From IMG/VR virus record IMGVR_UViG_3300037137_000696, positions 1 to 24,036 of that record: a DNA stretch of 24,036 nt; one strand, 5' to 3'. A program made the position numbers and the translations under genes. Every line of letters starts with the position of its first letter. Positions within the stretch are counted from its first letter, which is position 1. Origin of the DNA: a virus. Of this stretch, positions 5,197-23,005 are shown piece by piece. The notes under the pieces were generated by a model, which worked only from the letters and a program-made list of their open reading frames with translations, was not told where the DNA came from and searched no databases.

Positions 5197-5530
5197 ATCT
5201 TACCTCCACCTCGTCGTCTATCAGTACAAGTCCTGTTGCGAATGTTACGCCTTGAAGTCCAACATCTTCAGTATAAGATGATCCCTTTTTCTGGATAATC
5301 CCATTTAAGAGAACCAATATGGAATTAGCCACAAAAGCATCAGTCGTGGAAAATGCTACCTGACCCTCAGTAGCAACAAATTGGTCTATACCATAGGCAG
5401 GACTTATCCCTAAAGCGGATGGCTGTTTTAATAGCCAAGTCCGCGTAGTAGAATCATACTGTAGAATATCATTATCGGCAGGATTTACCTTGCTGACATC
5501 ACCCGGAGCCTGTAGACTATGAAACCACAT
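5183..5530 (-). CDS. Small fibre-associated beta-domain protein
   Basis: A 115-residue protein whose start codon shares one base with the preceding stop (TAATG at 5530). The N-terminal part (VNPADNDILQYDSTTRTWLL) resembles the short repeats of tail fibres. Residues 50-115 form a recognisable appendage module: FVATEGQVAFSTTDAF, LVLLNGIIQKKGSSYTEDVG, VTFATGLVLIDDEVEVRY. That module is common in phage fibres and adaptors and is beta-rich. It precedes the large fibre gene with a 14-base overlap, which suggests it acts as an adaptor or extra binding module on the same appendage. There is no signal peptide, in contrast to the two genes that follow. Confidence 0.75.
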   Translation of the reverse strand: MWFHSLQAPGDVSKVNPADNDILQYDSTTRTWLLKQPSALGISPAYGIDQFVATEGQVAFSTTDAFVANSILVLLNGIIQKKGSSYTEDVGLQGVTFATGLVLIDDEVEVRYAKS

Positions 5531-6420
5531 TACTTCTCCTTCGCGCGTAATTCTTGAAGTGTCTTGATTTTAGCCTCTACTTCCCTTGTCCGTATATCCA
5601 GGAGCTTTTGATTTGCGTCAATGGTAAGTTGCTTCTCATTAATCTGCTTATTCATATCTTCCAACACCTTGAATTGCTGATTGAGACTGTTAGTGCGGTC
5701 TTGATTATCTTTTTCTTTAATAGCCAACTCTTCGGCAAGTTTCTTATTCGCCTCTTTTTCCCTCTTTACAACTTCGGTCTTAATATTTATATCATCAAGC
5801 ATAACCTGGATTTCCGCTTTGTAGGATTCCAGTCCAGTTTTCTCCTTGTCTAATTCCGCTAAATCCTTTAAAAGTTTATCCAATTTCTGTTTATATAATC
5901 CTTCATTTGCTTTATTGTCCGTTTGTTTTGCCAGAACATCCGCTTCCTGGCGGTCAAGCGTCGCCTTGCGTGTGGCAAAGTTAATATTAGCCTCATCCAC
6001 TTCTTTTTTTAAGGCTATTGCCTGGCTCAACAGTTCATTGGCTTCGGTTTTCTTCTGTTGTATACCACTCTCTGTGGCTATTTTGTAGGAGTCAAAATCC
6101 ATTCGTTCCTGGTTTAACTTAGCAAGTGCGTCATCAGACTCTTGCATAGACCTCTTGGACATCTGAAGAAACTCGGTTGCCTCATTCCTTGTTTTTACCG
6201 CATAATCATTGGCTTCAACTTTTATCTTCTTGGCAGAGTCAAGTATAGCCTGTGCCTTATTCTGTGCCTCGGTTATTATCGCTTCGGCTTTAGCCCTGGC
6301 TTCAGCCATAGGAACATTGATATCCCTGACTATCTGTGATTTTAAGATATCCAGTTCGTCAATTTCCTTTTTAAGCTTGCCGAGTATTATATATTTTTCC
6401 TGGACTTCCTGTTCTAACAT
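5530..6420 (-). CDS. Long coiled-coil protein, probable virion stalk component
   Basis: A 296-residue protein with a strong ribosome site (AGAGGAGGATT) before the ATG at 6420. Nearly its whole length reads as alpha-helix with heptad periodicity: EKYIILGKLKKEIDELDILK, an Ala/Glu/Lys-rich stretch (AEARAKAEAIITEAQNKAQA) resembling the b-subunit stalk of ATP synthases, and several later Leu/Ile-Lys-Glu segments. There are no Cys and no membrane segments. The position between the ejection proteins and the fibre genes suggests a structural rod or scaffold that joins appendages to the virion, or an assembly chaperone for them. Coiled coils give false similarity easily, so no family is named. Confidence 0.75.
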   Translation of the reverse strand: MLEQEVQEKYIILGKLKKEIDELDILKSQIVRDINVPMAEARAKAEAIITEAQNKAQAILDSAKKIKVEANDYAVKTRNEATEFLQMSKRSMQESDDALAKLNQERMDFDSYKIATESGIQQKKTEANELLSQAIALKKEVDEANINFATRKATLDRQEADVLAKQTDNKANEGLYKQKLDKLLKDLAELDKEKTGLESYKAEIQVMLDDINIKTEVVKREKEANKKLAEELAIKEKDNQDRTNSLNQQFKVLEDMNKQINEKQLTIDANQKLLDIRTREVEAKIKTLQELRAKEK

Positions 6421-6442
6421 TTAATCCTCCTCTGTTATCTCT

Positions 6443-6841
6443 TTACTGAGTGAATTTCTTTTGGAGAGATAACCACATTTTAACCACCGTATCTGTAACC
6501 GTTCCTGTCTGCTCCGTTATCTTAAAACGTACATAAGGTATCGTTACCGGCATAAGTTGCATATGCTTGATTGTCGTTGCGGTAAGCGCCGTCTCAATAT
6601 CGCCTATGGTCTTTGGTACTCCGAAGTTGACATCCGCCGCGTTTTCAGCCACCGGAAGAACTATTGACTGCTCCATTTCTATCTTCAAATTGGGTAGACC
6701 TGTGCAGGAGACGATATAACTTAGGGCGAAGTAGTCAACATCCCCGAACCTGAAAGTGTCGGTGTAGATAACCGCACTTGAGCCGAGCGTGATGTTCTGA
6801 CTTCCTGCTAACTTCATTGAAAATGCAACGGGTTCATTCAT
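6443..6841 (-). CDS. Small beta-sandwich structural protein, cement-like
   Basis: A 132-residue beta-rich protein with AAAGGAGACC before the ATG at 6841. It alternates hydrophobic strands and loops (FRFGDVDYFALSYIVSCTGL, LKIEMEQSIVLP, IPYVRFKITEQTG, KMWLSLQKK). The pattern, ending in a Tyr-[VL]-Arg-Phe-Lys strand, is shared with the gene at 22637-23005 and more loosely with the Bbp16-like cement protein at 20045-20488. I read all three as small jelly-roll or beta-sandwich proteins of the virion surface. This copy is placed after the ejection proteins and before the coiled-coil gene, so it may decorate the tail or fibre base rather than the head. Confidence 0.7.
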   Translation of the reverse strand: MNEPVAFSMKLAGSQNITLGSSAVIYTDTFRFGDVDYFALSYIVSCTGLPNLKIEMEQSIVLPVAENAADVNFGVPKTIGDIETALTATTIKHMQLMPVTIPYVRFKITEQTGTVTDTVVKMWLSLQKKFTQ

Positions 6842-6859
6842 AAGGTCTCCTTTATTGAG

Positions 6860-9800
6860 TTACCAGTAACGTTTCTTTTTGTTCCCCGAAGGGATTATAT
6901 CTTTTATAATTTGTGCCGCTTGTGAACTTCCGGGTATTCCCGCCAACGAACCCGAAGCTCCAATCGTTTTTACTATACCTTTTAATTTAGTTTCTGGAGT
7001 TTTCCCTTTTACTATATTTCCGGCTCCTTCTAATATATCCTCTACGGTATTTATCACCGGAACAGGATTAGATGAATAAGTGATTGAAGAAACTAATTGT
7101 CCCACCAATGGGACACTTTGAATCATTTGCAACAAAACATTCATAACAAAATCCTGTTCTTTTTTCTTATCTTGCGCTAATGCTCCTGTTATCTTTCTTG
7201 AACCCCTACGGATACCTTCCTCAACTGCTCCGGCAAATACTAATAACCAAAACACGGAAGAAATAGCCTTACCGTAATTTTTTTCTTTAATCCCCATTCT
7301 CCATACCTGGCGATTTATATTGTCCCATCGTGCAAGCATAAAACTCTGGAATGTAAGGATTGTTTTGTTGATTGACTTATTATCAGTAAGTCCATATCCA
7401 GCAGTAATGGCAAGGGGTTGGTCTTTAAAGAATGATGAACCTTGGCTTTGACGCATTAACCGTGTTGCTTCTTGTACTAATTCAAGGTTAGGATTTTCAA
7501 AATCAACAGCAATTCCTTTCTCTGCCGCCAGTTTCTGATAAGAACCACTTGCCGCAACTGAACGCATAATCCCGTCTAAAACTTGCAAAGGTTTAGTTCC
7601 TACCCTTGTTAAATTAGCTAAAAATCCTTCACCAAATTCCCTAAAAGCAATATCATCCCCTACTGCTTTTTTAACCTCTGGAAAATTATCCATAATGAAA
7701 TTGCGCCACTCTGGAGATACGGCGATATTAGTAGCCCCTTTAGTTGCCCATTCTGTACCTATGGTTGCTATGGTATCGGAGAATGAAGAAAACTGCACCA
7801 GTGCTGAAGATAACCTAAAAGCTAAAACACCCGCACCGATATTCCTACGCAAAATATCTAAAGCGGCAATCCGTTTTGCCCCTTCCGTTCCGCCCTTACG
7901 TGCCATTAAATCTAACCATTGAAGCCAAGCAAGAGTGCCGACATCACCTAATTTTTCTCTCATTTCAGGAGAATTGATTACTTCAAAATACATCTTTATA
8001 TTCTTCCCGGTATTAAGCATATAAGCTACATCATCCATATGCCTACGGAATATCTTATCTATATTGGTTTCAAGTTTTATATTGCTTATTGTGGCACGTT
8101 CTTTTGTAAACCCCTGTTCTACTGTTTTTGTCTTACGGGTAGTTATCTGTTCAGGTGTTTGTCCAAAACGTTCATATATCTCTAAATCCGACATCAATTC
8201 ATAATCAGACATAAAAGATACATAATTTTCTTGTTCGCCGACATCAGCATTATAAACTTCCTTAGAATATTGCTTAACCGCAGGAAATTCTTTATCAAAA
8301 GTATCCAATACGAATTGATACGCTTTTTCTTCTGCCGGAGTTAATTTTATAGCGCTTACTTCTTCTTCTGTAATTCCACTATTAGCAAGTCTCTCTAATC
8401 CACCTTCCTGTCTTGAAGCCGCTATAACACCTATCCTCTCAAATTCTTTTTCGGTAAAATCTTTAGTTAACCCATACCACTGCTTGGTTACTTCATCATT
8501 GTAAGTAAGATATTTAGAAAAATCCGCGTCTAAGGCTTTCTTCATTGACTTCATTCCAGTAACATCAGCCAAACCATCTATCGGAGTAAGTCCTACGCCT
8601 GTTTTTTGAGCATAATTTTGTAAAGTAATAGTCCTCTCTACCCAAGAATTTACTTTATCGCCTATTGGAACTTTAGGCAATATTTTAGACTTTATCGGAG
8701 TTGCCTCTTTAACCAATTCAGTCTTAATTCTCTCTTTTTTTGCAACATAGACCGCTTCTCTGGCTTTTAGCTTAGTTTTTCCTAACTTCTCTAAATTACT
8801 TATCGTTTCGCTAACTTGGCGCAGTTGGTCTAAGGTCATATCTTCAAGATTAACCTTATCAAGCATGGCAAGTTTCTCAGCAGGTATGTCTATCGGCCTT
8901 CCTTCAATTTTCATCCTTTCGACAAATGTTTTCATTCCTTCACGCTCAGCGAGGGTTCTTTCTTGCCTTTTCTTTAAGTCAAATTTAGATTTAAGTTGCT
9001 CTATCATTCCTTGATATTCGACTGCTATATCTTCGGTCGGAGCAGATTGAATATCCTGAATTAAATCTTTTACCTCATCGCGCAATGCCTTTTTCTGCCT
9101 CTGATTTTCTCTTACCTCGGCATATTCTTGTTTAAGATTTTCAAGCTTATATTGAGCCTTAACTTTTTCGGCTTCTGTATTAAAATTAGATATTTTCAAT
9201 TCTTCTTCTAATTTGGCAATATCGTCCTCATATCTAAAAAACTGCTTAACTGCCCCGGCCATCAACTTATCTTCTTCTTTTTCGGCTTCTTTAGTTAACT
9301 GTTTAGATAATTTTTCTTCTTGTCCTAACATACGTTTAAGAGCTTCGGATTCTTTAATTACACCACCTACCTTAATTTGACCGGTAGTTTCACGGATAAT
9401 CTTCTTAACTTGACTTGTAGGTATTACGCTTGGTTTAGGTTTTATTACAGGAATCTTCCCCTCTCCTGTGGGTTGGGAGAGTTTGGTTCTTTCTGGTGAT
9501 TTCCATATTCCGTCAGTATCTTTTACCAAACCATTAGGAGCATATATTTCGCCTGTTCCTGTTGAGTATTCAATATCTCTTGCATCTACTTTTATTGGTA
9601 ATATCTCTCCAGACTTATTCTTTGTCTTACCATAAAATTCAGCACCTTTCTTATTAGGGCTAAAGAATGATTGACTTTCTACTTTACCGCTTTCGATTAT
9701 CTTTTGTGCATTTTCTATACTTGTTCCATGATAAATTGTTACTGAACCATCTCCATTTATGGAAATACGATATTTCTGTTCCTTAGCAGTATCTACTAAG

Positions 9801-10864
9801 TCTTGTGCCGCAGTAACTCTTTCTTGAAACTCCACCTTCCCCTCACCTGTGGGTTGTTCAACCTTAGGCAGATTTAGTTGGGAAAGAGTAACGACTATTT
9901 GCCTACCCATCATATCTATGGTAACACGCTTATCGGTTATCTCTTTAATTATCCCTTCCTGAATTATGCCTTTCGCATCCTTGAATCCTACGGTCTGACC
10001 TATCTTCGGGAGTTTAATCTGGCCTGCTTCATTCATATGTTGCAAATCTTCTATGATTAACCCCAACAGACTTCTTTTCCTGGCATAAGATTGTAATGTA
10101 GATGGGCCTCCACCCTGACCTTCTCCTATGGCTGTTTCTGAGGCGACAAGTTCAGCTTCAACGGCAGTCAACTTTTCGAGTGCGGTTTTCTTGAATTGTG
10201 TTTTAAGTTCATTTTTTGTAGTTTCTTCTGCGACTGGCCCGGCGGGAAGTATTCCCCGCATCTTTTCTTTAGCGGCGAGTTCTGCGGCTGAATCAAGTTT
10301 TCTAATTATGCTTCTAGCCAATAGTTCCCGTTTTAACGCAGCTTTGGCTAAACCCAAAACCCCGTATTCTATAATGGACTCAGATATATCGGCGATTATC
10401 TCAGCTACAGGAGGAAGGTCTTTGGTTCCAGGGAGGCGCCTATATAGTTGAGGGGTGGCCTCTGGGTAAGTAATGCCTTTGAAGAGTTTATCCATGATGT
10501 TGCCTTCCGCACCCTTTGCCGCCAATCCTTTTACTGCCTGGACTACAGGATATAGACCGCCAGTCATTACTGTCGACAGGGCTACACCTGTCAGGGCTTG
10601 CTTTCGGGGACTGGTAAGTTCCCAGTCAAATTTCAATCCAACAGGAACTTCCTCTCCAGCTTCTTTATACATCAGTTCGACATTTGCCCGCGCCTTGATT
10701 GGCGGCGGCCTATAAGGTATCTCGCCGGGCTTAGCGGCTCTTATGAATGTTCCGTCTGTTATGGATTCAATACTATTCGCAGTAGGAATATCAAAAATAT
10801 CCTTCTCTAAAAGACCATCTTCTCGTTCTCTTACCGGAATAGCGGTTTCTACGTCAAATGGCAT
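6860..10864 (-). CDS. Giant gp16-like ejection protein with ADP-ribosyltransferase-like domain
   Basis: A 1334-residue protein, starting on a TAATG overlap, in the position of T7 gp16, the largest internal protein ejected with the DNA. Residues 85-190 hold Ala/Gly-rich hydrophobic helices. Residues 288-331 look like a small SH3-like beta barrel (GQTVGFKDAKG, KRVTIDMMGRQIVV). Residues 375-445 look like an ADP-ribosyltransferase fold: VTIYHGTS (H379), SFFSPNKKGAEFYG (Y411) and STGTGEIYAPNG (E439), fitting an H-Y-E triad. This block lies between two in-frame direct repeats encoding QPTGEGK. Residues 500-720 are long coiled coils, and the C-terminal third is helical with hydrophobic segments (SSVFWLLVFAGAVEEG near 1202; VLLQMIQSVPLVGQLVSSI) and a basic tail (GNKKKRYW). 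The C-terminal half loosely recalls large polyvalent phage proteins. No lytic transglycosylase motif was recognised. Confidence 0.85.
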   Translation of the reverse strand: MPFDVETAIPVREREDGLLEKDIFDIPTANSIESITDGTFIRAAKPGEIPYRPPPIKARANVELMYKEAGEEVPVGLKFDWELTSPRKQALTGVALSTVMTGGLYPVVQAVKGLAAKGAEGNIMDKLFKGITYPEATPQLYRRLPGTKDLPPVAEIIADISESIIEYGVLGLAKAALKRELLARSIIRKLDSAAELAAKEKMRGILPAGPVAEETTKNELKTQFKKTALEKLTAVEAELVASETAIGEGQGGGPSTLQSYARKRSLLGLIIEDLQHMNEAGQIKLPKIGQTVGFKDAKGIIQEGIIKEITDKRVTIDMMGRQIVVTLSQLNLPKVEQPTGEGKVEFQERVTAAQDLVDTAKEQKYRISINGDGSVTIYHGTSIENAQKIIESGKVESQSFFSPNKKGAEFYGKTKNKSGEILPIKVDARDIEYSTGTGEIYAPNGLVKDTDGIWKSPERTKLSQPTGEGKIPVIKPKPSVIPTSQVKKIIRETTGQIKVGGVIKESEALKRMLGQEEKLSKQLTKEAEKEEDKLMAGAVKQFFRYEDDIAKLEEELKISNFNTEAEKVKAQYKLENLKQEYAEVRENQRQKKALRDEVKDLIQDIQSAPTEDIAVEYQGMIEQLKSKFDLKKRQERTLAEREGMKTFVERMKIEGRPIDIPAEKLAMLDKVNLEDMTLDQLRQVSETISNLEKLGKTKLKAREAVYVAKKERIKTELVKEATPIKSKILPKVPIGDKVNSWVERTITLQNYAQKTGVGLTPIDGLADVTGMKSMKKALDADFSKYLTYNDEVTKQWYGLTKDFTEKEFERIGVIAASRQEGGLERLANSGITEEEVSAIKLTPAEEKAYQFVLDTFDKEFPAVKQYSKEVYNADVGEQENYVSFMSDYELMSDLEIYERFGQTPEQITTRKTKTVEQGFTKERATISNIKLETNIDKIFRRHMDDVAYMLNTGKNIKMYFEVINSPEMREKLGDVGTLAWLQWLDLMARKGGTEGAKRIAALDILRRNIGAGVLAFRLSSALVQFSSFSDTIATIGTEWATKGATNIAVSPEWRNFIMDNFPEVKKAVGDDIAFREFGEGFLANLTRVGTKPLQVLDGIMRSVAASGSYQKLAAEKGIAVDFENPNLELVQEATRLMRQSQGSSFFKDQPLAITAGYGLTDNKSINKTILTFQSFMLARWDNINRQVWRMGIKEKNYGKAISSVFWLLVFAGAVEEGIRRGSRKITGALAQDKKKEQDFVMNVLLQMIQSVPLVGQLVSSITYSSNPVPVINTVEDILEGAGNIVKGKTPETKLKGIVKTIGASGSLAGIPGSSQAAQIIKDIIPSGNKKKRYW
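9455..9475. repeat. Direct repeat, copy 2 (3' of ART-like domain)
   Basis: This 21-base segment matches 9836-9856 at 20 of 21 bases. It encodes QPTGEGK at residues 464-470 of the gp16-like protein. The two copies are 381 bases apart (127 codons), so the frame is kept, and they bracket the ADP-ribosyltransferase-like domain. Confidence 0.85.
9836..9856. repeat. Direct repeat, copy 1 (5' of ART-like domain)
   Basis: This copy encodes QPTGEGK at residues 337-343, directly after the SH3-like domain. It differs from the copy at 9455-9475 by a single base. Recombination between the two would cleanly remove 127 codons, and the arrangement looks like the mark of a domain gained by duplication of a linker or by insertion. 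Confidence 0.85.
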
Positions 10865-12357
10865 TATTTAACCTTTGGTTTAGGAGCTTCTACGTCTAAG
10901 ATATCACCCATTGGAGTTATTGTTTTTATTGCCCCGTTTTTATCCATAGTTTCCTTTCCTTCTTGCGGATAAGTAGCGGCTTGAGGATGGAGTATCATTA
11001 CTTCCTTGCGTATCGCTTCATTGATTGCTATTTCTGGAGTTTGTCCTTTAGATACCCCTTCCATATATCTTTTGAATAACCTTGCTTTTATTTCTGGCTT
11101 TTCTTCAGCATATTCATCAGACCAGATAGATATTGCCTGGAGGAAACTCTTTTTAGGCAGAACTTTCTCTAAGGTATCTTTTGTTATCCCTTGATTAAAT
11201 GTATTTAAAACATTAAAATCTTCGTCGGATATTTCACCCGTAGCGTTCTTTTGCAATATTTTTAATTTAATATCTTCGGGGTTCTTTTCAGGATTTAAAA
11301 TATCCTCGGCAATATTATTAAAGGTTTCAGATTTAGTCTCCGCCTCCTCTTTTCTTAACAGGGAATTTATGTATGCCTCGGCAAATCTCGGTTTGAGAAT
11401 TCCCTTGTTCATATCATTTTTAGCCATTCTCATCAAGTCAGAATAAGACGCGGAATTATTCACCTTCATCTGGATTAACTCATCTTCTCTTTCTGTGCGA
11501 AATTGCTCCGCCTGCGATTCTCTAAGATTTCTAAGTTGCCTGTCCGATACTTCTAAACCCTCAACTATCTCGCCGTACTTCTCTTTCGGTATTTTTGCTT
11601 TTATCTTTTCGTCATTCAGAAGCGCCTTCGCCTCTTTCAATGTGCCACCCATCTGAAGAATAGAGTCTGCCGCATTGTAGGTTGCTTTAGCTATATCTTC
11701 GTTGACTTCTAAGTCCATTTGAGCAAGCGGTGTGCCTAACCTGTTCCTCTCATCTAAATGGTTCTTGATGATTTTATCTATTGCCATGCCTAATGTAGCA
11801 GGGTCAGCTTTAACGCTTTCAACAAGGGTCTTACTCAATGCGTCAAAGGTATCTTTAGCGGCTTTTCTTGTTTCGGCTATCTCATGTTTAATAGTAAACT
11901 CTCTGCCGGATAAGTAGTGGCTGGAAAGTCGTTGCGTCAACTCACTCCTATAACCCTCATGCTTTACTTTTTTAAGTATGCTATCGCGCAAGTCTGCACT
12001 TCTCTTTTCATACTCTGTTGCCGCGCCATTGGTCTGGTAACCCATTCTATCGCCTATACCATCGGGGATTTCCGTATCAACTCCGTCAATCTTTATGACC
12101 TTAGTCTTATCATTATGAAGAATATCCTGATTAGCAAGAATAAACTCATTCTCTAACTCAGCATTTTTGACTTTATACATCTGTTCAGCTTTTTCTTGGA
12201 ACATCTGCCCGATATCGCCGACTCCCTCTATGAGTTTACTCGTAGCCGCGGTTACATTTTCGCCAAAGGCCCCACGCACCGCCCCTGGTATATTATATTC
12301 TGCAACTCTCGGAGTCTGGGTTGATACTGTCTGTTGTGTTGTAGGAATTTTAGGCAT
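10864..12357 (-). CDS. gp15-like internal (ejection) protein
   Basis: A 497-residue, highly charged, almost wholly alpha-helical protein without Cys. Its start shares a base with the preceding stop (TAATG at 12357). The N-terminus is Thr/Gln-rich (TTQQTVSTQTPRVAEYNIPG) and is followed by long amphipathic helices, such as LIEGVGDIGQMFQEKAEQMY and EYEKRSADLRDSILKKVKHE. Repeated motifs of the type 'DxNVLNTFNQGITKDTLEK' recur in the C-terminal half. Size, helix content and location between a gp14-like and a gp16-like gene fit the middle internal core protein of T7-like phages, which lines the channel formed across the cell envelope during DNA entry. The call rests on order and composition more than on a specific motif. 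Confidence 0.7.
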   Translation of the reverse strand: MPKIPTTQQTVSTQTPRVAEYNIPGAVRGAFGENVTAATSKLIEGVGDIGQMFQEKAEQMYKVKNAELENEFILANQDILHNDKTKVIKIDGVDTEIPDGIGDRMGYQTNGAATEYEKRSADLRDSILKKVKHEGYRSELTQRLSSHYLSGREFTIKHEIAETRKAAKDTFDALSKTLVESVKADPATLGMAIDKIIKNHLDERNRLGTPLAQMDLEVNEDIAKATYNAADSILQMGGTLKEAKALLNDEKIKAKIPKEKYGEIVEGLEVSDRQLRNLRESQAEQFRTEREDELIQMKVNNSASYSDLMRMAKNDMNKGILKPRFAEAYINSLLRKEEAETKSETFNNIAEDILNPEKNPEDIKLKILQKNATGEISDEDFNVLNTFNQGITKDTLEKVLPKKSFLQAISIWSDEYAEEKPEIKARLFKRYMEGVSKGQTPEIAINEAIRKEVMILHPQAATYPQEGKETMDKNGAIKTITPMGDILDVEAPKPKVK

Positions 12358-12914
12358 TATTTTCCTTTCCCGTAACCTTTATAATCGTAGTAACCTTTAG
12401 CCACTGAAGAAGCGCCGCCTAAGATACCCGTGGCTAAACCGATATTGCCAGCTTTCCTGGCTTGCTTAGCGGCCATACCGTATTGTGTTGCCTGGGTAGA
12501 TAAACCCCATTTCTCAAGTGCCGCCTGATTATTTATACTCCAGGAGGCTACATCGGCATTATAACGAACAGTAGACTCGTCAAGTTTCTGGGTGCGGAAA
12601 AGGTCTGTAGCAATATCGCCTTCACTTACAGAGCCACCGCCTATGCCACTTGCCGCCCTTGCCGCGCGTTGCTCTCCGGCCAATACCATATATTTACGTT
12701 GCAACTGCTTGGTATCTTCGGCAGCCTCAGTCTGGGTAAGCCGGACATTCTGTTCTGCTGTGCGCTGGGCTAACATGGCTTGTTGTTTAGCTACGGCTTG
12801 ATTATATTTATTCATTTCTTCTTCGGACTTACCCTGCTGATAAGCCATAATCCCACCGCCCACGGCAGAGGTTACGCTTAATGCTATCCCGACTACCGCT
12901 AATGCTACAGGCAT
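12357..12914 (-). CDS. gp14-like internal virion protein
   Basis: A 185-residue protein starting ATGCCTG at 12914, two bases after the upstream stop. The N-terminus is a hydrophobic Ala/Gly segment (ALAVVGIALSVTSAVGGGIM, residues 4-23). A Gln/Ala-rich helix follows (NQAVAKQQAMLAQRTAEQNV), then the glycine patch ASGIGGGSVSEGD, more helix, and a C-terminal Gly-rich stretch (GLATGILGGASS, then YKGYGKGK). This arrangement is typical of the smallest T7-type ejection protein, gp14, which inserts in the outer membrane of the host at the start of DNA entry. The position directly before the gp15- and gp16-like genes strengthens the call. Confidence 0.8.
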   Translation of the reverse strand: MPVALAVVGIALSVTSAVGGGIMAYQQGKSEEEMNKYNQAVAKQQAMLAQRTAEQNVRLTQTEAAEDTKQLQRKYMVLAGEQRAARAASGIGGGSVSEGDIATDLFRTQKLDESTVRYNADVASWSINNQAALEKWGLSTQATQYGMAAKQARKAGNIGLATGILGGASSVAKGYYDYKGYGKGK

Positions 12915-12916
12915 AG

Positions 12917-13363
12917 TTATTTCTCCCTTTGGTAGATAATGATATCGCCTACGTTATTAAAAAAGAAAAACCCTAATTTCCGGAACATCTTCATTAATCC
13001 AGGTTCACCTGCTTTAGCGCAAACCCTGATTTTATCTGTAAAACCAAACATATGCTGGATCATCAATTCCGCCGATTCCATTGAAGCCTTCAAGCCGATA
13101 GGCGGGGTATTAGGGTCCTTTAATGCTTCCATAAGGTATCTATTGCCCTGTTGAAAATATCCTATTACTCCTGCACGTCCACCTTCATGGTTTACTGCCC
13201 AGAACTTACCGGAATATCTGTCTAAAGTTTTGATTGCCTCCCTGCGCCCTACATGACCGTTCCGGGGAGTATCCGCAATCTCAATGACATAACCCATATC
13301 CTGCGCTTCCAAGGGTTCTAAGGTTACTTTTTTACCTGTCAATATCGGTCTGTTATCGGGCAT
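12917..13363 (-). CDS. GNAT-fold virion-associated protein
   Basis: The open frame reaches 13492, but that would overlap the upstream gene by 140 bases. The ATG at 13363 has GAGGA at the right distance and leaves an 11-base overlap, giving 148 residues beginning MPDNRPILTGKKVTLEPLEA. The layout fits the N-acetyltransferase (GNAT) fold: a first strand KVTLEPLEAQD, a central strand AGVIGYFQQGNR, and the closing RVCAKAGEPGLMKMFRKLGF, similar to the 'N..s..ly.k.GF' end of that fold. The acetyl-CoA loop (Q/RxxGxG/A) is not clear, so it may be inactive. Related GNAT-like proteins occur in virion gene clusters of T7-like and BPP-1-like phages, where they may serve structural roles. Confidence 0.65.
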   Translation of the reverse strand: MPDNRPILTGKKVTLEPLEAQDMGYVIEIADTPRNGHVGRREAIKTLDRYSGKFWAVNHEGGRAGVIGYFQQGNRYLMEALKDPNTPPIGLKASMESAELMIQHMFGFTDKIRVCAKAGEPGLMKMFRKLGFFFFNNVGDIIIYQREK

Positions 13364-13850
13364 TTGCTTCCTCTTTCTTAAAGGTAAAATATTGAAACAT
13401 CCTGTTATCAACGCCAAAGGGAATAATCTCACCGAACTCTGCGCCAATCCATTTAAGCCAGAGTATCGCCGGCTTGTTGCGGATGTCCACATAGTTGTAA
13501 AGCACGGGGTATAACTCCAACATGGTCTTGATGAAGTTTCTGCATTGCCTTAAAAAAGTCCTCTCTACCTTATCCAATTTCTGTGAGGTCAAAAACCATA
13601 TTGCCGCTTCTTTTACTAAGAGGTCTTGGGGTCTTAATATACCACCCATAGCAAGTACCTCGTTATCTGTTATTATGGAAAAACAGAATACCGAATGGGA
13701 GAAAGAATAGAATAATGATTGCTCTGGTGTAAAATGATGTACCGCCCAGAGTTCATCTATGGTTGTTGAGCGCAGATTATCTTTGAGCGAAGTGATGTCG
13801 CTTACTTCTGCATCCCTACAATATCCTACTTTTGAGCGATAATATTCCAT
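13353..13850 (-). CDS. gp13-like GNAT-fold protein (DUF2833-like)
   Basis: A 165-residue protein that starts with a TAATG overlap at 13850. The order of motifs resembles the T7 gp13-like, DUF2833-type group: an N-terminal VSDITSLKDNLR, a middle strand SIITDNEVLAMGGIL, then AIWFLTSQKLD and, near the end, YVDIRNKPAILWLKWIGAEF, which corresponds to the 'VD.RN..ai.wL.wlGF' signature. T7 gp13 is needed for proper assembly of the internal core proteins. The next gene is a second GNAT-like protein, so two related folds are encoded side by side. Acetyl-CoA binding residues are not obvious, and an assembly role is likelier than catalysis. Confidence 0.75.
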   Translation of the reverse strand: MEYYRSKVGYCRDAEVSDITSLKDNLRSTTIDELWAVHHFTPEQSLFYSFSHSVFCFSIITDNEVLAMGGILRPQDLLVKEAAIWFLTSQKLDKVERTFLRQCRNFIKTMLELYPVLYNYVDIRNKPAILWLKWIGAEFGEIIPFGVDNRMFQYFTFKKEEANAR

Positions 13851-14470
13851 TAGTATAGTTGTGTTGTGCCACCTGCGGTGAATATCGGCATTACCCCTAA
13901 TATGGTTATAGGCAAAGGGTCTGACTGGCGAAAACAGAACCTGCCCCCGTCACTATAACCTTGCCCTAAAGTTACCTTAATATCATCGGTATATAAATCA
14001 CCTGTATCGGTATGATAATCTCCCAAGACTTCGTGCATATCGGTGAAGTTGGGCCCAAACCAGCCACCTCTTGAGTTTAATATCCTCATCACTACCCGGC
14101 TTACCAAGACACGTTTTCCTTGGGTAGTCCCATCACCCAGGGGTACTTCAATATTGAGAGTTTCTAAATCGGCATTATAGGGAAGCCCGACATTAACCAG
14201 ATACGCAGGATTGCTTAAGGTCACCGTCCCCCCTGAGACTTCCTGTTGCGTCTGGACTATCCCATCAGCAAGGATAGACACGGTTTGGCCATCCAAGTGG
14301 TCAAGTCCGTTTACATAAATAGTGGGCGTTCCGGTAGCCCTGGTATCCTGTATTATTCCACTATCAACAAAGAATTGGTGTATAGGGTCAAAGGTTTTCA
14401 ACCTCTGCTCCATGCGCTCCACATACCTTTGCCCGCCCCTGTTGACTATCGCCCATACTGCATTGAACAT
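13850..14470 (-). CDS. Detached C-terminal part of gp12-like tail nozzle
   Basis: A 206-residue protein that reads as the last section of a podoviral nozzle rather than a complete protein. It opens MFNAVWAIVNRGGQRYVERM, which in intact relatives follows directly on the '..ESVCVIP' strand, and continues with HQFFVDSGI, IYVNGLDHLDGQTVSILADG, a set of beta strands (NIEVPLGDGTTQGKRVLVSR) and closing strands ending TTQLY. The preceding gene stops only nine bases earlier and in the same frame, with a ribosome site AGGAGA between the stop and this ATG. I infer that the nozzle is built from two polypeptides. The alternative, occasional readthrough of the TAA, would give one very long protein. Confidence 0.8.
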   Translation of the reverse strand: MFNAVWAIVNRGGQRYVERMEQRLKTFDPIHQFFVDSGIIQDTRATGTPTIYVNGLDHLDGQTVSILADGIVQTQQEVSGGTVTLSNPAYLVNVGLPYNADLETLNIEVPLGDGTTQGKRVLVSRVVMRILNSRGGWFGPNFTDMHEVLGDYHTDTGDLYTDDIKVTLGQGYSDGGRFCFRQSDPLPITILGVMPIFTAGGTTQLY

Positions 14471-14479
14471 ATCTCTCCT
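14471..14479 (-). promoter_or_regulatory. Ribosome-binding site at the nozzle split
   Basis: The nine bases between the upstream TAA and the downstream ATG read AGGAGAGAT on the coding strand. AGGAGA is a strong Shine-Dalgarno core at a good distance from the ATG at 14470. Its presence supports reinitiation at the downstream part and argues against the stop being a sequencing error. Confidence 0.8.
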
Positions 14480-17400
14480 TTAAGGCCACCAATAATTTAA
14501 TGTTGGATAACTTGCGGTTGCTTCAAGCCAGACCGCAGGATTATACCATGTCGCGTTGGTAAAATTCCAAGGAGTAACTCCTGCATAAACCGCGTGCGTC
14601 TTTAGATAAAAGTCGGTTGCGTCATCCTCGTCAGTACCGTAGCCTCCGGCTACAAGACGGCTTACTGTCGCCGCACCTACCTTGCCGATGGCTATCACAT
14701 AGCTCGCGGTAGCCCATGAACAGTTGGTAAGTGTAGTTGTAGCCATCATGCCTATAAAGCCGCCCATGTAGGTGGTAGTGGCGCCGCTTCCCCGGGTAAC
14801 ATTGCCTGCTGAGTAACAGTTTAGAATAGATAGCACCCTGGAGTAGCCGGCGAAACCGCCGACTCCGTTGGCGATTGTAACGTCGGTAGTGGTCACGGTT
14901 CCTATAGCATAGCAGTTCTGCAGGGTGAGTGATACGCTCTTGTTCATGTATCCGAAGAACCCTCCTATGCTATCTCCATCGCCGTTTACGATATCTATAT
15001 CTACTGTAGTATAACAATCCTGGATAGTCCCCTGATAACTCTCAGCGATAAAGCCGCCTACAGTATCCGAGTCGCCATGTCCACTGTGAACGCCGGTCAA
15101 GGTTATCTGACCAGTGGCATAACACTTGGAAATATCCCCCCAGTTTATAGCGCCATAACCAAGAAATCCGCCTATAATTGAATGTGATTTAGCCACAGTT
15201 AATATAGTTAAATCTATATTTATATTTTCAGCATAACAGTTTCGAATAAGTGGGTCACCGCAATATCCCATAAATCCAGCTATCACATCACCCCCGGCAT
15301 CATCGCAGGTAATAGTAAAATTCTTGACGAAACAATATTCAATGCGATACCGTCCAGTTATAGCATCCCATGCGCCCCCCATAAAACCACCGCAATTCAT
15401 AATATCATTAACAGTTGGTTCGGCAGAACAATTCATCGTGAAATCGGTTACATCACAATGCCTGACAATAGTGTCAAGATTATCCGAGGTAAAACAGTCT
15501 CCGGCAAAACCGCCTGCGGAAAGAAGGTCAGTATCATCATCTGAAGAATTTATCGTTACATTGGAAACATGAATATCATATAAAAATGCACTCAATATAA
15601 ATCCTACTACCGAACCTAACGCATAACTGCCGGTAAGAACGACATTCTCCAGGTTAAAGTTTTTGACTACACCGCGGTCATCCTTATCATCGGTATCATC
15701 ACCTATGTAGCCGAATAATCCAACTATATTTTTTTCATATCCAGTTTCACCATCAGAAGTAAGGTTACTTATAGTATGTCCCCTGCCGTTGAAAGTGCCG
15801 GTAAATACAGGGAAAGGACCTATCGGTTGCCAATCAACGCCTGTAAGGTCAATGTCATTATCCAGGACATAATCGCCGTCTACGTCATCATTCATGGCTT
15901 GCAACTGCGCGGCTGTCCTGATATGCACTTTATTTGTATCAGTATCATATAAGCATAAGTTACAATATTCCTCTGTGCGGGCAGTAAAATCAGTAGTCCA
16001 GCGGGCAACATTACTTAAGCGAAATTCGTCAAGCCAACCGGCAAAGTAATTACCGGCATTGCCGTCACATCCGATTACCATATCGTCATCCATCGTCGGA
16101 ATAATCGCCGCCATGCTTCCAGTTTCGGTAACGGTCTGCTTAACCGCGTCGATGAATAAAAACCATGTCCCTGTTGTAATGCCGTTTCTTACAAAGACGA
16201 TATGATACCAGGTATTAAGAGAAGGGTTAAAGGCGCAAGCTACAGAAGCGGTCACGCCGGTATTTATCACGGTAAAAGTCAATTTATCGGTAGAGGCAGT
16301 ATAGGTAAATTTGAATAAATTTGTCGCACTCTCCCTTACCGTAATAAAACAACAATCCTGAATAATACTAAATCTTACCTGACATTCAAGGGTAAAACTA
16401 CTTGTGCCTAAATCCCAATCGTAACTATAATTATAGGGGATGTAGATATAGTCAGAGTTACCGTCGAGCATAAGTGATGAACCGCCAAATTTCTTTTGCG
16501 CGGTATCAAGTTGCGCCGTGCCTTCAAAAATAAAATCATGGAATGTCTCGGCGGTATACATAATCGCCGTATCTTCGCCGTTAAAGGGCGCATAAATTCG
16601 GGTATACAAATCACAATAAGTGTAATCATCTTCGGCAGGCGGGATATAACCTTCCGCGGGCATAACGCATACCGATTCGAATAAATCATCTCCTTCATTG
16701 GTATCATGCCAACTCCAAGCCAAGACTTCCTGCTCGCGCATATAAGTCATGCTCAAGAGTATGCCGTCATCCCTTACCGCCCAGACAAGCGAATCAGGTT
16801 CTTGTTGGTATGCCATCTCTATGATATTGTGGTTGAAGAACAGATGGTTTGATAAGATACTGATATTCGCCCCACTGAAGGTATCGGTAAACAACTCATA
16901 GCCTAAGTCCCTGACTACCGCGCCTCTTGATTGTACATAGATAGTTCTATTGCTGATGATGCAGGGTTGTATGCCTGACGAACCATTATAACCGTTAGCC
17001 CTTGCCTGTATGGTAAGCGGTGAAAGTACGCTATTTTCGGTAGAACCTACTGACCATTCTGAACCACTGGTAAAAGCCAGTAACTGCAATAAAGAGACAA
17101 GTCCGTTGATGGCATTTAATTTCTGGGAGGGAAGATTTATGGTTACGCCATCAGAGGCCACAAGGGGGTCATTGCGTAAGAAATCATAGTAATTACCGGT
17201 CTGGGTCATCCAGAGAGTCTGTGGGTCGTAGTAACTTCCGGCAAAGACAAGTCTATCCTGTGAGAATACTACGCATGACGGCCAACCACGATAATCACTC
17301 CATGCCCCTTCTGCCCAGTCAATCGTTGTTGCTGTTGAACCGGCCACGCGTTGCATATCTACCGCAACCTTAGAAGATGATAGATACTCCGTTATCTTAG

Positions 17401-18622
17401 CCACACCTTGATGTGTATATGGGTCAGAGGTCAAATCTACATTGATTGTTCCGCCGAATGTTCCTGTTGTGGGATTCTGCGAGGTTGCCCTGATTAAGAA
17501 CGGCAAAGCCCCGTCAGACATATCCTCAGAACCATAGGTATCGACATTAAAATCATCGGTGCTTGAGAACTGTCTTAAAGTAGTCCAGGTTGTCCCATCC
17601 GTTGATTTCTGGACTTTAAACTTGCCTGTCCATTTGCCATGCGAAATTACCCGCCAGGTACCGCCACAAGTTATTGACGAACCCTCAGTAGCCTTAGTGA
17701 AAGCCTGAGCTGTAGCTTGGCCTTCTATGTAATGATTTAACTGTAATACCCCGCCCACATGAGTAGGGTAAAAATAAGTTGCCGCTGCTGTCAGAGTGGC
17801 CGGAGTAGCGATTGTAGACAACTGCATCGTAAGTGTCGCATCATCATTGCCAAGCCTAAAAGGGCCATTCTGGAAGTCATAGAGGGAAAACTCCCAGTCC
17901 GTGTTACCGTATCTGGTAAGTTCCCTGGGTTGAAAATCTGGGTGAGTGATAAAGAGGACATCCGCTGACTGAGCGAATCTTAGGGCGAATATATCATCTT
18001 CTGAGTAAGGGCTTACTACCTCATAGATAGTTTGCCCCAGCCAGGCTGTGCCTACTGTAAAAGCTGTTCCTGAAGTATGTGCTTGGATACAGAAGTATAT
18101 CGTGGGGGTAGCTGTACCTGATGTTACCGCGGCATAGATACCGGCTGCATAAGAAGTAGTAGCAATCCATTTATTTATATCTATCGTCCATTTATTAGCC
18201 GCTAGGTCGGTTGCAAAGGTGCTAGAGGTATGGTCTTGTAGGCAAGAATAGATTATCCCACTTGCCCAGGTGATGTCGTATAGAGAATAAGTTGTGGTAG
18301 CAACCCAGGCATCGCCTGTCTCTTTTTCTACCGCGCCATCCTCGGTAAAGAAACGACAATAGTAATCGCCGAATTCTATGACATAGTTTTCATCTGCGGA
18401 GAATTGAAAGTCTACTACTCTGGCCTTGGAATTATCTTTCTTGGTTGCGGCTATCTTTTTAAATCCGGGGCGGTTAGAGATACCTCCGTGAGGATGGATA
18501 TAGAAGTTGCGTAGTTTTCGTGCGCCGGTGGCGTACTTCTGTATGTCAACTCTCGCATATAAAGACGGAGCAAATTCACCTCCGCTGAAACTCGACTTTA
18601 TTACTTGGACTGGCGTTGCCAT
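14480..18622 (-). CDS. gp12-like tail nozzle fused to LamG and GLUG adhesin domains
   Basis: A 1380-residue protein with a composite layout. Residues 1-95 are the usual start of a podoviral nozzle (SSFSGGEFAPSLYARVD, ARKLRNFYIHPHGGISNRPG). Residues 104-196 hold two tandem carbohydrate-binding-module-like units (AWVATTTYSLYD, YSCLQDHTSS; KWIATTSYAAG, YFCIQAHTSG). Nozzle sequence then resumes (SPYSEDDIFALRFAQSADVL) and runs to about residue 655 (LSMTYMREQEVLAWSWHDTN). Residues 676-890 look like a LamG/concanavalin fold (FGGSSLMLDGNSDYIYIP, NTWYHIVFVRNG, GWLDEFRLSNVARW). Residues 895-1325 contain at least eight GLUG-type units (NDIDLTGVDWQPIG, FTGTFNGRGHTISNL, then repeated GGFxGY and xxCYAxGxI). 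The terminal nozzle section is missing and encoded by the next gene. It should form the tail tip and bind surface glycans. Confidence 0.85.
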   Translation of the reverse strand: MATPVQVIKSSFSGGEFAPSLYARVDIQKYATGARKLRNFYIHPHGGISNRPGFKKIAATKKDNSKARVVDFQFSADENYVIEFGDYYCRFFTEDGAVEKETGDAWVATTTYSLYDITWASGIIYSCLQDHTSSTFATDLAANKWTIDINKWIATTSYAAGIYAAVTSGTATPTIYFCIQAHTSGTAFTVGTAWLGQTIYEVVSPYSEDDIFALRFAQSADVLFITHPDFQPRELTRYGNTDWEFSLYDFQNGPFRLGNDDATLTMQLSTIATPATLTAAATYFYPTHVGGVLQLNHYIEGQATAQAFTKATEGSSITCGGTWRVISHGKWTGKFKVQKSTDGTTWTTLRQFSSTDDFNVDTYGSEDMSDGALPFLIRATSQNPTTGTFGGTINVDLTSDPYTHQGVAKITEYLSSSKVAVDMQRVAGSTATTIDWAEGAWSDYRGWPSCVVFSQDRLVFAGSYYDPQTLWMTQTGNYYDFLRNDPLVASDGVTINLPSQKLNAINGLVSLLQLLAFTSGSEWSVGSTENSVLSPLTIQARANGYNGSSGIQPCIISNRTIYVQSRGAVVRDLGYELFTDTFSGANISILSNHLFFNHNIIEMAYQQEPDSLVWAVRDDGILLSMTYMREQEVLAWSWHDTNEGDDLFESVCVMPAEGYIPPAEDDYTYCDLYTRIYAPFNGEDTAIMYTAETFHDFIFEGTAQLDTAQKKFGGSSLMLDGNSDYIYIPYNYSYDWDLGTSSFTLECQVRFSIIQDCCFITVRESATNLFKFTYTASTDKLTFTVINTGVTASVACAFNPSLNTWYHIVFVRNGITTGTWFLFIDAVKQTVTETGSMAAIIPTMDDDMVIGCDGNAGNYFAGWLDEFRLSNVARWTTDFTARTEEYCNLCLYDTDTNKVHIRTAAQLQAMNDDVDGDYVLDNDIDLTGVDWQPIGPFPVFTGTFNGRGHTISNLTSDGETGYEKNIVGLFGYIGDDTDDKDDRGVVKNFNLENVVLTGSYALGSVVGFILSAFLYDIHVSNVTINSSDDDTDLLSAGGFAGDCFTSDNLDTIVRHCDVTDFTMNCSAEPTVNDIMNCGGFMGGAWDAITGRYRIEYCFVKNFTITCDDAGGDVIAGFMGYCGDPLIRNCYAENINIDLTILTVAKSHSIIGGFLGYGAINWGDISKCYATGQITLTGVHSGHGDSDTVGGFIAESYQGTIQDCYTTVDIDIVNGDGDSIGGFFGYMNKSVSLTLQNCYAIGTVTTTDVTIANGVGGFAGYSRVLSILNCYSAGNVTRGSGATTTYMGGFIGMMATTTLTNCSWATASYVIAIGKVGAATVSRLVAGGYGTDEDDATDFYLKTHAVYAGVTPWNFTNATWYNPAVWLEATASYPTLNYWWP

Positions 18623-18725
18623 TATTATGCCCTTTTAACCATGCCAGATATAACCAGCAGGTTTGTTTGCATCCTGAGTCCGGGGTTGAACTGCAATTAC
18701 TGCACGGATAAATACTTGACATCAT
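18576..18725 (-). CDS. Cysteine-rich mini-protein (49 aa)
   Basis: The start codon overlaps the stop of the tail gatekeeper gene in an ATGATG/TGA arrangement, and the frame runs for 49 residues into the first codons of the nozzle gene in another frame. It covers a 99-base gap that otherwise has no gene. The product starts MMSSIYPCSNCSS and has four Cys, C8, C11, C18 and C22 (CxxC, then CxxxC), followed by WLYLAWLKG. Small phage proteins with the pattern CxxC...CxxxC then Trp-rich helix occur in other tailed phages, so I think it is a real metal-binding mini-protein. Its function is unknown. The 47-base overlap with the nozzle start weakens the case slightly. Confidence 0.55.
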   Translation of the reverse strand: MMSSIYPCSNCSSTPDSGCKQTCWLYLAWLKGHNNGNASPSNKVEFQRR

Positions 18726-19345
18726 CTCGCATCTACAAAAGCCGAAGTCCCTTCGTTTACTTTATCAGGATTGTTTTCCAACGCACTCATGCGCTCCGCC
18801 TCGCCCATCATGTCATTAAATATCTTCATCATGGTGATGCCCAGGTTAGGGTCTCCGGTCAAGGGCATAGCCATTGCCGCAGCCAACCGATAGCTTAAGA
18901 CACTCACAAAGCGCGCGTCATAAAAAGTGGGGTCAGCCAAATCAAAGGTATATTCACCGAGTGCCGAGGGAGTATTACTTACAATTACTTTCTGGGAATT
19001 TGTGGCATCGTGTAAAACCCTGAAGTCATCGCTGATGGACTTATTGGCCTTACTCTCATTGTAGACTTTCCAAAGTGCCAAACAGTTGCCCGGGTAAGTA
19101 TAGGCATAACTCCAGTCTCCTGCATAAGTCCCAGAAGCAGTAAGTGTAGCGAAGTTAGAAGAAGGGGTAAGAGTAGCCACGACCGTGCCAAAGGCCCAAT
19201 CGTGGCCGCTCAATGCTTCTTTTCTTGCAGTATCCCATACTCGCGCAGCCACCTCCGCCGCAATAGATGCCTCTGATGTCGCTGAAATAGGTGCTTGCGC
19301 TATATGGCCAAGCGCCAAGTTAATAATCTCTACTTGCGTAGCCAT
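18722..19345 (-). CDS. gp11-like tail tubular protein A / gatekeeper
   Basis: A 207-residue protein with AAAAGGAGATT before the ATG at 19345. The start MATQVEIINLALGHIAQAPI is the hallmark of the T7 gp11-like tail adaptor family, followed by AAEVAARVWDTARKEALSGH and DWAFGTVVATL, both strongly conserved features. The middle is beta-rich (YAGDWSYAYTYPGNCLALWK), with a later VSNTPSALGEYTFDLADPTF and a closing helix where it reads FVSVLSYRLAAAMAMPLTGD. Length fits the family (about 190-210). It forms the ring between the portal and nozzle in podoviral tails. It lies directly before the cysteine-rich mini-protein and the nozzle gene. Confidence 0.88.
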   Translation of the reverse strand: MATQVEIINLALGHIAQAPISATSEASIAAEVAARVWDTARKEALSGHDWAFGTVVATLTPSSNFATLTASGTYAGDWSYAYTYPGNCLALWKVYNESKANKSISDDFRVLHDATNSQKVIVSNTPSALGEYTFDLADPTFYDARFVSVLSYRLAAAMAMPLTGDPNLGITMMKIFNDMMGEAERMSALENNPDKVNEGTSAFVDAR

Positions 19346-22637: not shown

Positions 22638-23005
22638 TACTCTTTCTCACCCTGGAGTACATAGTTAAGTGACATCGTTACTGATGCTCCGGGGACAGCT
22701 TTAAACCTCAAGTAAGGAGATACTACCGGGGTAAATGGGATATACATTGTAAGCGCCGTAAATACCGCGGCGCATATTGCTCCTACTGCTACTACCGTGG
22801 CATTGGTAGGGTCTAACCAACTTATCCCGTCAATCGATGTCTGTTGAGTTATGGTCAGAGAACCCGTAGCAGTCCAAGTGATATGCAGGCCTCCGTAGAT
22901 ACCTCGCAAATTACCCATTTCGAACATATTTGAGTAACCTGTCGAACCTGCGTTTATCACCTGCGCGTTCATTACTGTTTTTTTATCAGTCCATACTTGG
23001 CTCAT
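22637..23005 (-). CDS. Small beta-sandwich structural protein
   Basis: A 122-residue beta-rich protein with AGGAGGGATT before the ATG at 23005. It reads as alternating strands (GIYGGLHITWTATGSLTITQ, QTSIDGISWLDPTNATVVAV, LTMYIPFTPVVSPYLRFKAV, TMSLNYVLQ). The same plan, in particular a TGxLxI strand, an SI motif and a PYxRFK strand, occurs in the gene at 6443-6841, so the two are likely distant paralogues. I interpret it as a virion decoration or fibre-base protein. It lies between the right-edge fibre gene and the capsid gene block. Confidence 0.7.
   Translation of the reverse strand: MSQVWTDKKTVMNAQVINAGSTGYSNMFEMGNLRGIYGGLHITWTATGSLTITQQTSIDGISWLDPTNATVVAVGAICAAVFTALTMYIPFTPVVSPYLRFKAVPGASVTMSLNYVLQGEKE

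Follow-up and report, generated by a model that had tools for sequence, protein, structure and literature searches.

A podoviral tail nozzle apparently encoded as two chains, with a LamG-GLUG arm at the break

In podoviruses, the DNA channel is closed by the nozzle, which is regarded as a conserved component built from one chain. Can it be made from two separately encoded chains? The question is raised by a 24,036-base record of an uncultured virus (IMGVR_UViG_3300037137_000696; the whole record is the window referred to here), which carries podoviral structural genes on the minus strand. Its nozzle region contains two adjacent open reading frames (ORFs). ORF1 (14480..18622, minus strand) encodes 1380 amino acids with Pfam and PHROG matches, and ORF2 (13850..14470, minus strand) encodes 206 amino acids. 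We put the probability that ORF1 and ORF2 are two chains of one podoviral tail-nozzle protomer at about 0.8. An earlier note on this DNA had proposed much the same. Its N-terminal nozzle part, its LamG-GLUG arm, and its C-terminal part as a second chain stand; its placement of the arm at the tail tip is probably wrong, and the case is not a single oddity.

The two ORFs share one nozzle profile, phrog_376 (tail protein, podoviral nozzle; profile length 712). ORF1 residues 5-656 cover profile positions 4-503 (E 6e-147). ORF2 residues 3-201 cover positions 509-711 (E 1e-48). Together they span the entire profile in order and with no overlap, and therefore no nozzle part has been lost. The full-length profile of a podoviral tail nozzle (T7 gp12-like) is thus covered by both ORFs jointly. 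Solved nozzles are usually one polypeptide, which is not a defining feature; here there are two ORFs, each with its own start and stop. The nozzle part of ORF1 (residues 1-656; 16655..18622, minus strand) contains the N-terminal platform strands and nearly the whole propeller. The earlier note had the nozzle running normally to about residue 655 of the 1380-residue protein, and the profile match ends at residue 656. It is followed by a short linker, LamG, a GLUG-type region, a cap-like segment, and TAA. The strand '..VWxIV.R..RYVER', which the note had placed at the start of the next gene, opens ORF2 as AVWAIVNRGGQRYVERM.

Where does the break fall in the fold? The nozzle of L007/L008 (related loci are given by our locus numbers) is a single chain of 882 amino acids and is uninterrupted at the window's insertion site. 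The L007 nozzle was modeled with AlphaFold2 from 40 sequences (predicted local distance difference test [pLDDT] score, 85.8). The model has the propeller-plus-platform fold. It matches the Carin-1 nozzle (8ck1) with Z 42.9 and a root mean square deviation of 1.9 A over 661 residues, and it matches T7 gp12 with Z ~27. The window's insertion point falls in the turn at L007 residues 676-679, between strands 667-675 and 680-688. Matches of the model to unrelated propellers stop near residue 700, and the first ~25 residues of ORF2 are therefore assigned to the propeller. The sequence shows that the nozzle portion of ORF1 stops in the last-blade hairpin, between C-terminal strands 1 and 2 of that blade, and that ORF2 opens with the next strand. 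In the T7 nozzle, the blade that closes the propeller is completed by an N-terminal strand (velcro), and the fiber dock comes after the propeller. Three strands of the platform jelly roll come from the N terminus of the protein (PMC6702177). By this anatomy, ORF2 would supply the final two strands of the blade that closes the propeller, together with the C-terminal platform part, and would interlock with ORF1. ORF2 was expected to complete the nozzle fold, and the equivalent C-terminal part is integral to the fold in the L007 model compared with solved nozzles. The earlier note had also considered relatives with an intact nozzle plus a separate ORF2 homologue; this combination, which would have counted against its reading, was found at 0 of 101 single-chain loci.

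The insertion hairpin belongs to the last (velcro) blade, on the fiber-dock/platform side, which is the outer surface in T7 and SU10. In the SU10 nozzle, blades 1-3 are set off from the tail axis (PMC9509320), which makes the flank the expected exit of the arm. The earlier note had the arm projecting from the tail tip. The model makes the flank the more likely place, and the arm probably exits there and not at the tip.

We strongly infer a two-chain assembly. ORF1 and ORF2 would co-fold, and the closing blade would receive two strands from ORF2. To the platform jelly roll, ORF2 would contribute the C-terminal portion and the N terminus of ORF1 the remaining strands. The chains would be interlocked at two sheets, and the nozzle would consist of six ORF1-ORF2 pairs. 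The free C terminus of ORF1, with its LamG and beta-helix, would form an arm along the outside of the tail, at the flank. The arm may bind surface glycans and so hold the virion at the cell.

Is the split maintained? An independent contig, L002 (IMGVR_UViG_3300033489_000060), has the same split and the same junction sequence. The earlier note had called for relatives with the same insertion site, and this contig is one. DNA identity with the window is only 84-88%. Amino acid identity is 94% in the nozzle part, 76% in the insert, and 95% in ORF2. Comparison of the two contigs gives ratios of nonsynonymous to synonymous substitution rates (dN/dS) of 0.042 in the nozzle part, 0.068 in ORF2, and 0.036 in the adaptor. 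Both nozzle pieces are therefore constrained almost as strictly as the neighboring adaptor. Judged from these ratios, both are under strong purifying selection. The LamG domain has a dN/dS of 0.073. The GLUG arm is the fastest part (0.151), and its middle units are ~62% identical. Such a fast-changing arm would be as expected of a receptor-binding domain.

The junction (14468..14482, minus strand) reads CCT-TAA-AGGAGAGAT-ATG, that is, stop, Shine-Dalgarno site (AAAGGAG), and start, and L002 is identical here. The nine bases between TAA and the ORF2 ATG complete the Shine-Dalgarno site. At other split-nozzle junctions, either a Shine-Dalgarno site or a TAATG/ATGA overlap is present, and the frames of the pieces relate to each other in several ways. 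As far as sequence can tell, the junction features speak for translational coupling and against readthrough. The close spacing and the Shine-Dalgarno site overlapping the stop would keep ORF1 and ORF2 output in step.

What does the arm consist of? The LamG and GLUG content described in the earlier note was recovered. The LamG domain (Laminin_G_3, PF13385; residues 720-874; 16001..16465, minus strand) scored 49.6 bits against a cutoff of 27.6 (E 6e-13). The GLUG-type beta-helix arm, with an N-cap and a C-terminal cap, takes up residues ~896-1380 (14483..15937, minus strand). GLUG (PF07581) scored 32.4 bits against a cutoff of 20.5 (E 1e-7), and the units stand in tandem. A hidden Markov model (HMM) of the unit found seven strong units in residues 1037-1301 (14720-15514, minus strand); ~10 are counted by eye with weaker ones. 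The GLUG region ends in a cap-like segment, ..WNFTNATWYNPAVWLEATASYPTLNYWWP, with TAA immediately after. The same cap form closes the GLUG part in L021 and L147. The insert model (724 residues, 12 sequences, pLDDT 73) contains a LamG/ConA-type jelly roll that matches a domain of the arabinanase AbnA with Z ~19 and lectin-like domains of clostridial proteins with Z 17-19. The LamG fold is very common, and the clostridial matches therefore have no bearing on toxicity. Residues 239-585 of the insert model match the right-handed beta-helix of 3n6z (Z 25.2, 21% identity). Weaker beta-helix matches are to polygalacturonase, adhesin PfbA, and the HK620 tailspike. The modeled arm begins with a compact LamG and continues as a right-handed beta-helix that resembles the GLUG helix of IgA1 proteases. 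From the fold only, we infer that the arm could bind sugars.

No homologue covering 80% of the insert was found in cultured phages. Matches there were LamG similarity and one partial match to the GLUG region (PV036413; 49% of the insert, 27% identity). A search of viral contigs with the insert returned the L002 contig alone. A PDB sequence search with the insert gave no match.

Is this locus a single oddity? Viral and genome contigs were scanned with both nozzle parts, which gave 137 usable loci in 91 clusters. Sixty-five clusters are single chain, 10 are split (10/75 of those resolved), and the others are truncated or unresolved. Split nozzles occur in ~10 other lineages, with breaks at several other positions. 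On the nozzle tree, the distribution of the split state calls for a minimum of 5 changes. Split nozzles thus recur, and both the place of the break and the type of adhesin vary among them. Four cultured relatives (Vibrio phage 1.185.O, BPP-1, Shamal, and Carin1) are single chain in their gene maps.

The breaks were grouped by position. Break C is that of the window and L002. Break C' is found in L026 between HDTG and IESLAVIP, and an antisense HNH homing endonuclease (NUMOD4+HNH_3; L026 4851-5366, minus strand) lies between the pieces. Break D (fiber-dock/FCCH site) falls at ORF2-equivalent residues ~40-50 in L004/L005, L011, L019, L021, L024, L026, L062/L079, and L101/L102. L006 is apparently also broken at D. 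Break A, after ~residue 60, is found in L131 and L147. Break B, at ~profile position 314, is found in L131. The breaks contain or adjoin LamG, Gly_rich_2, GLUG, F5/8C, and BNR (sialidase-like) domains. No adhesin domain was recognized at the break in L062/L079. L011 is the window's nearest relative after L002 (62%) and is split too, at D.

Three groups of these loci have further features. In L011 (2715-7525), the nozzle-inserted LamG appears, by eye, to be divided. The first half ends ORF1, and the second half opens the C-part ORF. A 112-amino-acid ORF and a glycine-rich 401-amino-acid ORF lie between the halves. In L131 (8693-12248; a contig of a Phycisphaerae metagenome-assembled genome), the nozzle is in three overlapping ORFs of 64, 321, and 800+ amino acids. 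The third opens with a GLUG module fused to ~profile position 316. Frameshift damage was rejected for L131; its pieces tile profile positions 1-59, 64-312, and 316-525, with start/stop overlaps and a GLUG arm. In L004 (9047-13036) and L019 (11178-13007), long low-complexity runs of the SPSASPS type join adhesin heads to the nozzle C-part.

Why is the chain broken? In a scan of 50 single-chain nozzles, FCCH was found in 27, CBM5/12 in 21, LamG in 4, and GLUG in 0. The unit HMM, run over all ORFs, found GLUG only at split nozzles and in one unrelated tail protein (L146). The split nozzles with GLUG are those of the window/L002, L021, L131, L147, and also L006, where a GLUG start is directly behind the broken nozzle. 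Among cases from the nozzle search, GLUG is present in 4/12 split versus 0/65 single-chain clusters (Fisher p ~4e-4, computed by hand and uncorrected for phylogeny). Compact LamG, CBM, and FCCH domains occur in single-chain nozzles too. The two ends of a long beta-helix lie at a distance from each other. Such a helix would be hard to loop into a closed hairpin and would force the hairpin ends apart. Compact LamG, CBM, or FCCH domains could be looped into the hairpin. Once the chain is cut, the insert would become an arm tethered by a single end. Our hypothesis is that this ends-apart rule is the reason for the break.

Related domains were also seen elsewhere. In L146 (1704-3509), from another virus, a DUF2460 protein carries a fused GLUG module, and GLUG arms are therefore not confined to nozzles. 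The window itself contains two similar tandem CBM5/12-like segments (18020-18330, minus strand) at residues ~100-200 of the nozzle N-part. L012 and L034 have a CBM5/12 match near the window's insertion site.

Two loci contain spare nozzle pieces. L019 (IMGVR_UViG_3300030616_000078; 8992-14749) encodes a nozzle core (phrog_376 1-557) and then two tandem C-part ORFs, with TAATG overlaps. One C-part spans 541-711 and has a head of F5/8C and SPS repeats. The other spans 542-711 and has a BNR head. L147 (IMGVR_UViG_3300010391_000191; 3487-9172) encodes two N-terminal platform ORFs (138 and 923 amino acids) before a 697-amino-acid core ORF. Its N-pieces span profile positions 8-56 and 9-62, the latter with a GLUG arm, and the core spans 66-710 (E 8e-156). 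The gene content of L019 and L147 suggests that a nozzle piece could anchor alternative adhesins. Nozzle fragments might then be plug-in anchors, with the six sockets of each virion taking alternative adhesin-bearing pieces; we offer this tentatively, as a doubtful but possible extension. If it is true, the window would be the simplest member, with one arm on the N-piece.

Could the split be explained otherwise? The source is a metagenome contig, and an assembly or sequencing artefact might be suspected. L002 refutes this, as it shares the junction despite its DNA divergence; the dedicated Shine-Dalgarno site and the complete GLUG C-cap ahead of the stop also argue against an artefact, which is hardly conceivable here. 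ORF1 might instead be a separate adhesin and ORF2 a remnant, with the gene for the working nozzle at another place in the genome. The record, a 24-kb fragment, leaves room for such a gene. However, both nozzle parts show strong purifying selection and occupy the nozzle position between the adaptor and the gp13-like gene. No second ORF2 copy and no second nozzle were found in the 24,036-base record, and none was seen beside the split nozzles of relatives. A nozzle elsewhere is very improbable. Stop codon readthrough would make some full-length fusion, with ORF2 as an in-frame extension behind a single TAA. ORF2 is in frame with ORF1, 9 nucleotides from stop to start, in the window and L002, and the pieces are also in frame in L004. 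A programmed extension has no start signal of its own, but ORF2 has an ATG, and the stop itself overlaps a strong Shine-Dalgarno site. Both copies use TAA as this stop, and a hexamer requires ORF2 in equal amounts. The pieces lie in different frames in L011, L019, L026, L101, L131, and L147, so readthrough was rejected as a general route. For the window it is improbable.

A neutral history of genes in pieces is unlikely but deserves to be taken seriously. Endonuclease or recombination insertions would have broken the nozzle at tolerant loops, adhesins would have accumulated there, and the break would not be for display. The homing endonuclease between the L026 pieces fits this, and the functional nrdA of phage Aeh1, split by mobE, is a precedent (PMC2988022). 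Against it, only 9 nucleotides separate the ORFs of the window, with no endonuclease between them. An endonuclease was present only in L026, and none was found by Pfam in the ORFs scanned at other breaks. Most breaks have an adhesin-type domain, and among nozzles GLUG is in split ones only. Introns were also rejected; Rfam gave no match in the window or seven related loci. Several points do weigh against a two-chain nozzle that displays an adhesin. The assembly is predicted here from genes and from a model of the relative L007, not of the window's two chains, and strand pairing was deduced from the order of the strands rather than measured. Some of the split lineages, several in number, are represented by one metagenome contig each, and the L024 and L021 splits could conceal frameshift errors. 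The breaks of L026 include the endonuclease insertion, and therefore not every break serves an adhesin. LamG is also present in the split nozzles L004, L011, and L101, so the ends-apart rule fits GLUG better than LamG.

The gene neighborhood of the window is that of a nozzle. The order on the minus strand is protease and major head protein, adaptor, ORF1, ORF2, gp13-like gene, and internal virion proteins. The tail adaptor (tail tubular A-like; 18722..19345, minus strand; phrog_394 E 1e-40) is directly upstream. The T7 gp13-like internal virion protein (13353..13850, minus strand; PF11090 E 2e-10, phrog_308 E 7e-38) is directly downstream. This is the usual position of the nozzle gene. Carin1 has the same order of adaptor, nozzle, and small gene, and its connector is upstream too. 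The profile phrog_30010 matches the window's protease-like gene and separate nozzle stretches, as if from joined or deleted genes. Two small phrog_28213 proteins (22640-23005 and 6446-6841; 24% identical) flank the structural region at opposite ends and are possibly paralogues. Large ORFs of 519, 655, and 1334 amino acids (1683-5196 and 6860-10864) have no confident Pfam family. The 1334-amino-acid ORF matches phrog_9880 only. These three are candidate tail spike or internal proteins.

How does the locus compare with known systems? Nozzles, LamG, GLUG, and genes in pieces are each known, and the precedent nearest to this case is nrdA of Aeh1, which works although mobE splits it. The Carin-1 nozzle (8ck1) and T7 gp12 have the same fold, gene position, and neighbors, and Carin-1 is also a sequence relative. 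Both are one polypeptide, whereas the window has the closing-blade hairpin cut and a 725-residue LamG-GLUG arm. At the later, FCCH-type site, additional residues are present in Carin-1 too. Phage genes in pieces include Aeh1 nrdA, split by mobE, T4 gene 60/39, and split gene 43, and the Aeh1 ribonucleotide reductase is reported functional despite the split (PMC2988022). As in those systems, one protein would be made as two chains needing reassembly. Those are enzymes mostly split by mobile endonucleases, whereas the window has a virion structural protein split beside adhesin modules, and nozzle splits occur in several lineages at several positions. The fiber-dock loop of SU10 is an extension of blade 1 (PMC9509320). 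Like SU10, the window is predicted to bear its receptor-binding apparatus from the blade-1 region on the outer flank. SU10 docks separate trimeric fibers, whereas the putative binding domain of the window is covalently within the nozzle chain. IgA1 proteases and related surface proteins (3n6z, 7uvk) have a GLUG right-handed beta-helix like that of the window (Z 25). Unlike them, the window's helix has no protease domain and is attached to a phage nozzle. Cyanophage baseplate proteins and Rhizobium phages encode LamG/ConA-like domains ~33-38% identical to the window LamG, but the carriers are baseplate or other structural proteins, not a split nozzle. In the literature searched, which left out most subscription papers, no report of a two-chain nozzle and no paper joining GLUG, phage, tail, and adhesin were found.

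If annotators look for a single nozzle gene, they will overlook the binding protein or give the pieces wrong names. The breaks offer natural split points within a virion protein. They also give a testable rule: solenoid arms would need a broken chain, and compact domains would not. With the breaks of relatives at other places and other adhesins on their pieces, the tail nozzle resembles a socket that takes interchangeable adhesins. A nozzle cut at several loops, with pieces bearing varied binding domains, would be a new way to attach receptor-binding arms. It would stand beside docked fibers and tailspikes on short tails.

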